Part shown: one piece after another, positions 548 through 9,600 of the stretch | Layout: each line of letters starts with the position of its first letter | How positions within the stretch are numbered: position 1 is the stretch's first letter | Assembly: GCF_032854445.1 (NCBI RefSeq) | Contig: NC_088301.1 | Location: 14,070,281 to 14,134,280, forward strand | Source of the DNA: Liolophura sinensis | Lineage: Eukaryota > Mollusca > Polyplacophora > Chitonida > Chitonidae | Reading direction: 5' to 3' | DNA: 64,000 nt | The notes under the pieces: model-generated | What the model saw: only the letters and a program-made list of their open reading frames with translations | Told to the model about the DNA's origin: nothing | Databases searched by the model: none | Position numbers and translations under genes: made by a program

Positions 548-649
548 TCAGAGATGATAGGCATTTCTCATCATAAGATCGAAATAAGCATCACTGTCGA
601 CTGAAGCACTAACTCCACTATAGTAGTTCATGAACTCTTCTTTGGTGAT
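548..649 (-). CDS. CAPSL: CAPSL alternative last exon C (distal)
   Basis: Acceptor CGCTTTCAG|ATCACC, phase 0, 33 codons plus TGA. Starts [14 protein letters not shown] and ends [19 protein letters not shown]. It lies 5 kb beyond exon B and has no EF1-EF3 exons near it, so it is not part of a second complete gene copy inside this window. More copies could lie beyond the left edge. Confidence 0.88.
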
Positions 650-3600
650 CTGAAAGCGGACAAAATAAAGAGAGTGACGCAAGATACGACAGGTGCCAAA
701 TAAACATATTGGTATATTCTAGAGAGACTACTATACACAACAACAACAAGTAAACTGTTCAATAAATTAAACTATATAACATTCATCTATAACGTTCATT
801 TAATCTAGTTTTGCTTTAGTGACCTTGCATGTGATCTGTTTTGGGCCCGTTTTACAAATCAGTTCTAACCGACGTAAGATTCATGACAATATAACGACCA
901 ATTTATATATGCGTATGTACGTGGCAGAGAAGCAACAGCCATTTAAAATGCTCTTCTGTAGATCTCATCATTATGAGATCTTGATTATCTCAGAGGTATC
1001 GTTTTACCTTGTAAGAACTAAATAATTTTGTACAAATTTCTAGAGAGAATATTGTTACATGTATTAAGTTAGATCTAGAGAGCATACAAGAGAAAAATGT
1101 TGATAGCAAATATAGTCTAAGATGTTTAATTCATTGAACGACAAAAATTTGAACGCATGCATGCACACAAAACTATGTCCCACGATTAGATCTCGCTTAA
1201 AATTATGGAATATCAACAAGAAAAGAACAATGCATATATATATGAACAAAAAAATAAAAAATAATAACTTTATGAATACAGTTAAATTATTCATAGCCCA
1301 GTTGACATCAGCGATGAGCGCTAAGCGAGACAGTGACAAATACCATTTTCAACGTCTTTGGTAGGACCCGACTCGGGTTTGATCCCGGGTCCTCCGACTT
1401 CGAGGCGGACGCTCTAACCAACAGGCCATCGAAGCAGTCTCAGTGTATACTTGCACGGAGAAAGAGTTACAGGATCTGAAGTGCGCAAGCTTGATTGCAT
1501 GGCGTAATAACTCATGATATCAAAGGGGGCAATACGTGTCGTGGGATAGGCCTGTGGGGCAAAAGCTGTTTGGCGGGGATATGATTCAAAACAGTATACA
1601 TCTACATGGAATCGACGGGGGTAGGGGGGGGATGAGTGGGGAGGGGGGCACAGCTAGCCTTGGGATACAATCCACAAGAAATGGCAAGGCAAGCTATATC
1701 AGTGATTTGGACGAGATGATCAATAATCAATAACAATCAATCAACTCCGAGTGACAGAATCGTCAATACCAGGCTGATGCTTTGGGCCCATGCAGTTACT
1801 CAAAACGTGCATTAGCAGTTAAGACTGGTATTAACTTTAGTTTGGACTAAAGTCCATTTGTTTTTTCCTAGGGAAAGAGTGGCATTAAAGTTTAAGCCTT
1901 GCTTAACTTTTAATACACTTTTGTACAACAGGCCCATGGTATAGTAAAGGGTGGGGCAAACCAGACAGCGCCCAGGGAAACTGTCTCTTGGCAGGTGTGC
2001 ATGGACCGTCCACTTGTACAGTGTAAGTAAATATAGGACTGAATCCACACGCTCTAGTACACAGTGGTATAGTTGGTATGGTGCTTTGTAACTTTTATCG
2101 AGCAACGCAGTTGCCAGAGTTATGGAGAGAAACATATACATTTGGGGTATTAATTTATGGGGTATTACCTCGTGTTCACTGTTTCCTCTTTCGAGAATTT
2201 GCTTGCATGTGTGGATCTGATATTACGTCGTGCTTAACAGTTTTTCAGTAGGGGTCATTCTACGTGTGTGTACATACACTGTGTCTTCCTTTTGCACAGC
2301 GAGTCCATGCCACCAAAGTGCTGCCGCCACTGAAGTATCATGCCCAAGACATCAGACATGACACCCCACCCAGTCACCTTGGACCGACACCGACCCAACC
2401 AGTCCTGTTTCTTTGCTTAAATCTTTCAGAGCTGAGCGCCAAGCGAGGCAGCAACAAGAAGTATTTTTTGAAGTTTTTGGCATGACTGGCATGAAGCGGT
2501 CTGGTCTTCAACAAGGGTCTATAAAAGGGCCAGTGGAGTGGCTTGATAAAGAACATTATATTGGATTCGAACGCACAATGCGTGAATTAATTTATGAGAA
2601 ACGTCTTCTTTCGGGAATGGGCCATGTTACAGGCGCCATGCAGTGGAATGGTTTGATAAACATATTTTGAACACGTGGCTACGTCGACCTACGCGAGAGT
2701 CGCGTGGCATCGATGAAATATCTTTGCCTGTTGGCCCACTCTGCTGTCATGAATGTTCAGCACCAGAGTGATAATTTAAGGGGATACAGAGTCGATGCTA
2801 ATTTGGCTAAAGATGAAGGTACGTTTCCCTGTGTTAAACCCTAAAGCCTTGGTCACGTTTGAATAAATGTACAATACCTAAAATTCAGCTTGCCTCTCAC
2901 ATCAGCCAATCAGAATCGATTCAGGATCCCTTTAAGAACATCCTGTTGCAACTTGAATCCTAAATGACCATAGATCTGCCCGAAGTACATGTGCAGATGC
3001 CCTACCTACTTTTGGGTGAATGAAGGTTTTAACCAATTATAGCAATTTCGGACTAGACCGTAATCAGTTCATTAAACCGCGCCTTTAATTTTTTGTCTGA
3101 CACAGATCATATTTTACAAGTTTTGAGATTCATGCATATAAATTTTTTGTGCCTCTGTCTTGTAGGTGTAGGCCTATGGGTTTCCGTTGGCAACATGCTC
3201 ATCAATAAATGAACACAGCAAAAGGTAAAGGACAGACTTTCTTAAATCCGCAGTGATTCATCAGCATGACTGTGCTTGACAAACATGTTATAGACATCGT
3301 CATTGTTGTAGTAACGACTTGTCACGTTCCCCGCAGCTGCATACACAGCCTCCACCATGGTGTGGTCATCTTTAAGAGCAAAACCGGTTTCATCCAAACG
3401 CGACCATAAATTTGATGAAAATTGACTGCATTTGATGAGTTTCAGCGCGATTTTATTGCAACCATTCCAAAGTTAACCCCATGATGTATAGGTCTAAGTG
3501 TCGTTGTGTGATCAAATCAAAAGTTCCCGCGGTTTCGCCTTCCGCTCCTTATACGCATGGTCGCCATCGGAAAAATGCAAATTCTTGAATATACACCTAT

Positions 3601-6600: not shown

Positions 6601-9600
6601 CAAAAGCCACAAAAGCAAAATTCTAATCCACTCTTTACATAAGTGTATGTAGCTAGCAAACAACATGGAAGAAACATATTCAAGCTGAGAATAAAAGTAC
6701 ATTTAGTACATTTCAGTGCAATACTTGTTTACCTCATACATGTGTCTACAAAATGATACCTTTTCTCTGAAACACTGATGGGATAGCCCAGGACTGAGAA
6801 GTCTACTCAACACTGCATTGAGGGTAAGACGAAATACAATGTTGTGTTGTCCGAATCAATCATGGGCTAACCTATTTAGCACATATCATTATTTTTGAGC
6901 AATAAAAAATCAAACAGAACAAGTTGTAGTATAGAAAATAGAAGATTAACTTAAGTTACATACACAGTTTAAGAAACAACATAGCAATAGCAGTTCAAGG
7001 AAACATTTTACCCCTACCGTTATGCATTTAAATCACAGATGATATATGGAATTCACTCAGATATGTACAAAATCTGAGAACTAAAAAAATAAAAAAGACA
7101 TTGCCGAGCACCAAATTAGCAATGCTTCTGGGAATTTTTCCTCAGCTCTGTTGAAAGGTTAACAGTAAAAGACAAGTGATCTTTCTCTGAGCCATTCCAG
7201 AGTTAGGTGATGACTGATAGCTGAAGTGACAAAGAAATTCAAATATTTCAGTATTTCTGTACTCACTTGGCACACCAAAATTTAAATTCCTGTTTTACGG
7301 GCTGAGGGAAACATTTTCCAAGGTCAGAGGACCGTATGAAAAAATTTTTTAAAAAATCATGGAAAACGTATGCTATTTTTTGACATGCAGACATATTTAC
7401 ATGATGGAAAGTCTTTAAAACCAGGAATAATGATAAAAAAAAAAGAGATCCACCAAAATAAAAAAGTGGATTTTCAGTTTCACATTAATTCTGTTTTTGG
7501 ATTTGTAGTGTCAAGTCACCTATAAAACACAAAATAACATTGGTTTGGCCTGAAAGAAAATGTTTCTTTCTTTCACTGCATGGATGCCTGAGATCAAATA
7601 CTGTGTAAGGCTGGAAAACTAATCCACTGAAGTCAGGTAATACATGATCAAACAGGCGTAATACTAATTCGACCATCAAAGACAAAGAGAGTAATAAACC
7701 AGGTGACATGTTAATTACACAGGTGGTGTGCCAGGTAAGAGGTTGGGGAGACGGTGCTGTAGTCGGTGCAACGGTGCAGCTGGGCTCTCTACTGACAGTC
7801 TAGATCTTATAGGCATTTCTCATCATCAAGTCAAAATAGGCATCATTGTCTATTGAAGCACTCACACCACAGTAATAATTCATGAACTCCTCTTTTGTCA
7901 CCTACAAAGAATAAAATCATCTATAATACAAAAAAAGCAAAGCTGTGATATATGTGTGCAAAAAAAAGCTCAAATCATAATAAATAACAGAAATAAGTAA
8001 TAACCTAATCTGCTGATTAAATCAAGATGAAATATTGATCAAGAGAGGAACAAGTGAAAGACTAATCTACTGACTCAAGATGAAATACTGATCAAGCAAG
8101 GAACAAGTAATACCCTAATCTACTGACTCAAGATGAAATATTGATCAAGAGAGGAACAAGTGATAGACTAATCTACCGACTCAAAATGAAAGACTGATCA
8201 TACATACTACAGTGTGATTTACTATAAATCTTTGCTGATATAAAGCTTTTTATTGTTGTTATTCTTTTTATTATTATTTTTGTTATTGTTACTAAGTTAT
8301 GTTTTCAGTTTGTTATTGCTACGATATGCATTCTGGATGAGTTAGTATCACATTACACAGAGTTATTGAAATGGTCATGTTTGCATCCATGTGTTCTACA
8401 GGGGTTACACTAAACATGCTATGGTGACCAAAAACATTTCCCATTTCCACTTCCATGCTCCTCAGACAGTGTTGTAGGAGGTGTCAACAAACTATGTATT
8501 GATATAGAAGGCTTTGTGATTACACGGACTTTGTTTAACATTTTGCGGATTGTTTGAGTTAGGCCTACATGGAAGTCACTTCACAGCGTTATATGGTGAA
8601 CGGTTGTGTGGTGAAAGCTCTCATTATGCGATGATTAAGTGTACAAATGTATTTCAGCTAAAAGAGAATTTCAATGAGAAAATCTGTCATCAGCCTCCTG
8701 TGTTTGTGTAATTCCAATTTGGCATGTCAGTCTACACGCACATTTTGTTTCTTTACAGTCGAGAACTGTCCTCCTATTGCAGAAAAGTTCCTTTTCCAGG
8801 GTTTTCTATATTGGGGACCTCCATTAAACACAGAAAACGTACTTCACGCAAGGTTTTGGAGAACTAGCCCTACCAGGATTTACTTTTACCCCATTTCAGT
8901 AGCACTGTGTGCAAGTCCGGCATATTGGGAGACAGGATTTGTTTGAGTTGTTATTACATTAGGAGTTCAGACTGGCTTTATAAACAAAATGTCTAATGAT
9001 TTCCTGTATACAGTTTTGCCAAGACATAATTTATGTGTCGACAGCGAGAGATAAGATTATTGGTTTGCCCTTTCCCGTAATTAATGGGTAGGCACGTGGA
9101 AATTGCTGTGTCCTGTGAATGTAAGTGGCTTGTATCTACATGTAGATAACACCAATCTGTATGACTAAAATTTCATCTGAGAAGACTCCATTAAGTATTA
9201 CCTAAATTAAGTATTCTTGTTCACGAAATATGGGCAGAAGTTGACAGTTTTTCAAATTATGCCACAATGAACAAGAAACGTTTGGCTGCAGTGGTGCAAA
9301 TGCACGTGTGTAGGTGTCATTTTGATCACAATTTGACATCTTCATCTTGTCTGCTGGTAGGCCTAGTCTGTAAGCATGGATCCGTGGTGTGCTAAGTTCT
9401 GCTACAGCTTTGTAAACACTAAAGCCATGCAGTTTGAAAACAAATATTTGTCATGACTCTTCACATCCTTAGACATTCTTGATCACATTTTCCCAAATTC
9501 GCATTTATCATACAATAACGACAATAAAACAATCAACCTGTTCAGAAGTACATGTACTAAAATTATTATGATAAAAAACTGAGGAAAACATGAACTGTTG

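Follow-up and report, generated by a model that had tools for sequence, protein, structure and literature searches.

Tandem duplication of 3' exons has been described before, and 77 of 236 human tandem-duplicated-exon events swap C-termini (PMC9741552). Among the closest to the case described here are TPM1, Tm1 and lev-11, in each of which three homologous 3' copies stand in tandem and swap only the C-terminus of the protein (PMC9741552). Here, we describe a comparable arrangement in a calcyphosin-like (CAPSL) gene at one end of a 64,000-nucleotide stretch of the genome of the chiton Liolophura sinensis (hereafter, the window). The chiton gene belongs to a different protein family and, whereas TPM1, Tm1 and lev-11 have annotated isoforms, it carries four copies of its last exon whose use is putative.

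Other described systems resemble this locus in part. The exon duplication of ACTN1 and ACTN4 also touches an EF-hand (PMC9741552), but calcium binding there survives in just one of the two versions, whereas the four chiton copies do not differ at the ligand positions of the swapped part. Human CAPZB, of another family, has homologous 3'-terminal exons of similar length that are selected together with their poly(A) sites (PMC3228551), and the system described in PMC9013439 uses tandem homologous terminal exons one at a time, although these are exon clusters, again in another family. The whole-length homologues CAPSL (PDB 11yj) and calcyphosin (CAPS, PDB 3e3r) have the tail type of one chiton copy (B, see below), and no tandem last exons are reported for them in the literature searched. 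More generally, that literature yielded no report of tandem or alternative last exons in calcyphosins (subscription journals lie mostly outside it, and database annotation may show isoforms), which agrees with an earlier note on this DNA, made from the letters alone, that knew of no such description. The calcyphosin case is a new example of the known kind.

Results

A CAPSL gene with four tandem homologous last exons

The window corresponds to positions 14070281-14134280 of scaffold_3 (C7; 60,359,117 bases) in assembly GCA_032854445.1 (632 contigs), which was first published as Liolophura japonica (PMC11068029) and later corrected to L. sinensis (PMC12441733). The CAPSL gene runs on the minus strand, with three shared coding exons followed by tandem 102-nt last exons. 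Its parts are as follows, in window positions unless stated, with a slash marking an exon border:

14706..14842, minus strand: exon 1, coding part from the ATG; open frame with exons 2 and 3; donor AG/GTAAGA; CAPSL of PDB 11yj matched from residue 1
12840..13017, minus strand: exon 2, EF-hands 1 and 2; from frame, splice sites and Pfam EF-hand models
12204..12413, minus strand: exon 3, EF-hand 3 and the first half of the EF-hand 4 loop, ending DGK/; from frame and the shared donor AAG/GTAAGC
7800..7901, minus strand: last exon copy A, end NAYKI, stop TAG; acceptor ttctttgtag
5649..5750, minus strand: last exon copy B, end TAWNL (the canonical CAPSL end), stop TGA; 27/33 identical to CAPSL of PDB 11yj
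548..649, minus strand: last exon copy C, end NAYHL, stop TGA; from frame and acceptor
C7:14065467-14065366, outside the window, minus strand: last exon copy D, end NAYRL, stop TAA; from a genome search with the 208-residue protein (E up to 10)

Exons 1-3 join into an unbroken frame of 175 codons, and the shared donor at 12204 (GGAAAG/gtaagc) falls inside the loop of the fourth EF-hand (EF4), as the earlier note had placed it. The three last exons that it described, 102 nt long, in phase 0 and each provided with an acceptor and a stop, lie exactly where it put them. Its tandem repetition of the last exon also stands, but the number and extent given there, three copies over 7 kb, do not, since D lies 5.4 kb past C and the series from A to D covers 12.8 kb. 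All four copies measure 102 nt including the stop, are in phase 0 and have an AG immediately before the exon, so that 4/4 have their own acceptor and their own stop. They are neighbouring homologous exons of the same length and phase behind one upstream donor, which is the pattern of tandem-duplicated last exons. A 53-bp tandem array (3.4 copies, 86% matches, strand unspecified) occupies window 8022-8200 in the intron upstream of A, ending ~120 nt before the acceptor of that copy.

We propose, with a probability of roughly 0.8, that this is a single CAPSL gene whose four tandem last exons serve as mutually exclusive alternatives. From the one donor after DGK, splicing would lead to one of four acceptors, and selection of an acceptor together with a poly(A) site would give one of four 208-residue proteins with 175 residues in common, differing within the last 33. 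As every exon has a stop of its own and would have a 3' untranslated region of its own, four C-termini could come from one gene. Copy B has the canonical CAPSL end, and A, C and D are duplicates of old date that have a tail type in common. All four are presumably spliced in, with regulated choice between them, and the tail may alter binding to a partner, probably in cilia. RNA sequencing of five tissues (digestive gland, foot, gill, gonad and heart; SAMN35319765-69) has been published for this chiton (PMC11068029).

The distances between copies are long, as might be expected if the last exons were trans-spliced, or stood under separate promoters with unseen first exons, like those of Drosophila lola and mod(mdg4); trans-spliced genes with variable terminal exons do exist in Drosophila (PMC3228551). 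However, the copies all lie on the same strand downstream of the shared exons, where cis splicing suffices, and each starts in the middle of an EF-hand and requires the same upstream frame. We regard this explanation as very improbable.

Family membership and the search for further copies

Judged by its sequence, the gene is a member of the CAPSL family. With end B, the protein aligns to CAPSL of PDB 11yj over residues 1-208 (E = 5.4e-93, phmmer) and to CAPS (PDB 3e3r) at E = 8.5e-60 (phmmer), and Pfam EF-hand_1 finds 4 stretches in it, showing whole-length calcyphosin/CAPSL homology with four EF-hand-type motifs. Identity over the core is 64% to CAPSL and 50% to CAPS, while the number of the last 33 residues identical to the solved CAPSL falls from 27 in B to 24 in A, 22 in C and 19 in D. 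We drew a C-terminal family pattern, F-x-x-Y-Y-x-G-V-S-A ... A-W-x-L, from the solved CAPSL and CAPS sequences. It is whole in B; A, C and D fit its first part, with Y replacing W, and A ends in I, not L.

Two further calcyphosin-type genes came out of the genome search:

C1:5883019-5889955 and C1:10824194-10825753: two calcyphosin-type paralogues (P1, P2), with another exon layout and a tail of the C-Y type

Neither P1 nor P2 has an intron at DGK/V, and the last exon reads through this point. The near-terminal tryptophan of CAPSL, CAPS, B and the remote homologue RIB22 is a tyrosine in A, C, D, P1 and P2, and a tree of the 33 columns groups A, C and D with P1 and P2 (85/91), away from B, CAPSL and CAPS, with no branch at the starred level. 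In the core tree, P1 and P2 are joined at 100/99, and chiton CAPSL, CAPSL and CAPS are mutually unresolved.

A 39-residue query against the genome (E up to 10) returned 7 matches, namely A, B, C, D, the last exons of the two C1 paralogues and one weak match on C1. This search scores the best candidates only and does not see gaps, so its failure to find a fifth last-exon copy genome-wide is not proof of absence. A motif scan of 20 kb beyond the stretch holding D, 200 bases of which are N, likewise showed no further copy, and viral contigs searched with the isoform alignment gave 98 pattern matches and 0 relatives.

The tandem array, together with the presence of two more calcyphosin-type genes in the genome, could also suggest that the copies are relics of tandem whole-gene duplicates, each of which formerly had its own upstream exons. 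The search results speak against this: no second close copy of exons 1-3 was found on C7, where the other matches are distant EF-hand sequences (26-42% identity) megabases off, and the nearest relatives of exons 1-3 are the C1 paralogues, which are without the intron at DGK/V. Between A and D, moreover, 0/40 open frames of at least 68 residues have a Pfam match at E <= 0.01, a cut-off of length that shorter exons of another gene would escape. We therefore hold such an origin to be extremely improbable. A stop-ended, single-copy minus-strand frame of 76 codons lies between B and C (window 3245-3472) and may be an exon of something else; as a further gene end it was rejected, having no Pfam match at E <= 0.01 (weak sub-threshold names), no second copy in the genome and no likeness to the last exons by eye.

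Old copies maintained jointly by selection

Pairs of copies share 23-29 of 33 residues (A-B 25, A-C 27, B-C 25), and their bases differ at 21-34 of 99 positions, 14-24 of these being third positions. Synonymous differences (pS, 0.70-1.27) are at or near saturation, the two finite values of synonymous divergence (dS) being 2.07 and 2.95, and non-synonymous differences (pN) are 0.10-0.25. In neutral simulations with an equal number of changes, 0/20,000 reached the observed identity in each of the 6 pairs, and 51-62% held a stop, which together exclude chance as the source of the resemblance.

A codon model run on the best of three topologies (AB/CD; four sequences) gave a joint omega of 0.021 over all branches, and fixing omega = 1 was worse by a doubled log-likelihood difference (2dlnL) of 110.7. 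Residues have thus been kept despite near-saturated synonymous divergence at a joint omega of ~0.02, and the copies are therefore old and selected as a group. Tested singly, omega = 1 was rejected for D (2dlnL 12.4). Copies A-D are old and have been maintained by selection as a group, singly clear for D only, so that the earlier note's view that selection kept them holds for the set and, among single copies, for D.

The 200-nt flanks show almost no likeness, and therefore the exons alone were kept. Only 1/12 comparisons exceeded the best of 100 shuffles (A-B downstream, 18 vs 17, GCACC-rich); two more were raised yet within the shuffles, namely B-D downstream at 17 (mean 11.1, maximum 21) and B-C upstream at 19 (mean 14.1, maximum 22).

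A swap that varies the tail and probably spares the calcium ligands

The last exon supplies positions 8-12 of the EF4 loop (V or I; T; K or P; E or T; E), in a numbering in which we take the G of DGK to be position 6. T9 and E12 are invariant in A-D, and position 8 is kept as V or I. Because A-D agree at every ligand position in the swapped part, the swap should leave the calcium ligands unchanged. Position 1, which comes from the shared exon, is V here and P in the solved CAPSL, with no canonical acidic residue in either. The earlier note expected isoform choice to alter calcium binding. This does not agree with the kept V/I8, T9 and E12, nor with a position 1 that is already non-acidic in the shared part, and for the first of these reasons we dropped a calcium-affinity switch as the leading idea. 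A longer, shifted EF4 loop using the D two residues earlier is possible, and it would also fall in the shared part.

Over A-D, 12/33 residues vary, at loop positions 10 and 11, at some helix and linker residues and in the tail. The tails read TAWNL in B, as against NAYKI in A, NAYHL in C and NAYRL in D, the last three sharing an N-A-Y end. The swap thus likely affects the last helix and the tail, and the tail variation more likely points to partner contacts than to calcium affinity.

Splice, poly(A) and regulatory signals

We scored the 1047 AGs in the gene as acceptors, using generic frequencies that are not specific to chitons. On this score C and D tie for 1st place, A ranks 51st and B 67th, with the acceptors of exon 2 and exon 3 at 19th and 318th, and no other AG occurs at -15 to -3 before any of A-D. 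The first AATAAA or ATTAAA follows the stop by 381 nt in B and 450 nt in C.

Several observations weigh against four regulated, used last exons. The nearest AATAAA or ATTAAA past A lies 1.3 kb away (1305 nt), and D has none for 4.6 kb (first at 4661 nt), with weaker variants only at 355, 489 and 630 nt. When copies were freed singly in the codon model, B gave a marginal 2dlnL of 3.2, and neither A (0.3) nor C (0.5) rejected omega = 1; this per-copy test is weak because the one-omega fit to four sequences puts the B branch at the bound and the C branch at zero. Lastly, a search for a common motif or for RNA pairing that might guide regulated choice was negative. The longest k-mer common to the four upstream stretches is a 6-mer, which 52% of 200 shuffles equal. 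A docking/selector RNA pairing was rejected: with the first 300 nt downstream of the donor set against the last 300 nt upstream of a copy, the duplex was weaker than the average over 30 shuffles for 4/4 copies (z 0.31 to 1.94).

These points bear on another explanation, in which present use is confined to B and perhaps A, and C and D are old, disused last exons that have yet to decay. It would fit the distance from the donor to C (11.6 kb) and to D (17.0 kb), the lack of AATAAA or ATTAAA within 4.6 kb of D, and a per-copy selection that the omega test leaves unsettled for A and C. On the other hand, C and D share the top acceptor score, generic as it is, among the 1047 AGs, their frames are intact at near-saturated synonymous divergence, and D alone rejects omega = 1. 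We judge disuse of C and D unlikely, and retain the reading of one gene with four alternative last exons.

Five short motifs were also counted in a 17.1-kb stretch (C7 14065366-14082483) and compared with 30 simulations under a dinucleotide model. Three exceeded all 30 simulations, namely UGCAUG (19 vs 7.9 expected), CTCTCT (9 vs 3.5) and T7 (25 vs 10.0), whereas ACTAAC (2 vs 4.6 expected) and ACTAAT (7 vs 6.2) stayed within them. UGCAUG, which we take to be the Fox motif, stands at ~2.4x expectation, with 1.11 per kb here against 0.22-0.77 in five neighbouring stretches. The opposite strand also holds 19, and because both strands are alike the enrichment is a lead only.

Ciliary setting

Cilia are the likely place of action. 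CAPSL is named among the cilia proteins of the human fallopian tube (PMC13096173) and acts as a hub in gene modules that correlate with ciliogenesis in an echiuran worm (PMC10380512), and a calcyphosin-like protein occurs in the mussel gill proteome (PMC5302490) and among gill transcripts over-represented after exposure to algal toxin (PMC6215123). Among remote homologues, RIB22, RIB57, RIB35 and DMIP20 are chains in entries where RIB72 or EFHC ribbon proteins occur as well. A simple ciliary reading, with CAPSL as a candidate inner protein of doublet microtubules, is complicated by PDB 11yj, which has 40 CAPSL chains and is not among the entries listed for EFHC1/2, and by a role of CAPSL reported in retinal vessels (PMC11392532).

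Neighbouring features in the window

The upstream same-strand neighbour, presumably DNAJC14-like, has its last exons at window 19580-20660 (minus strand) and encodes a Jiv90 domain (Pfam PF14901, E = 5e-19). Further along, a 568-codon open frame at 36197-37900 (minus strand) has no Pfam match at E <= 0.01, and a 24-bp tandem array of 22.5 copies at 61450-61974 is partly open on both strands. A weak Rfam tRNA match at 26910-26981 (minus strand; 31.1 bits, cut-off 29), uncalled by ARAGORN, is perhaps a tRNA-derived repeat.

Discussion

The locus provides a clean example of C-terminal diversification via last-exon duplication in an EF-hand family, kept to near synonymous saturation. Its three extra last-exon versions are easily missed, one of them lying beyond the window. 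With 12/33 residues varying and the ligands of the swapped part fixed, the four predicted proteins would form a natural experiment on the binding partners of the calcyphosin C-terminus.

More speculatively, the tails could form an address code in which each CAPSL isoform suits a different ciliary or cellular partner, the tryptophan anchor of B giving way to tyrosine in A, C and D; we consider this rather unlikely as matters stand. If it were true, one gene would give cell-type-specific versions of the protein, for example in gill, foot, larval or sperm cilia. Should other molluscs share the array, it would represent a C-terminal switch of calcyphosins that is old and spans the lineage.

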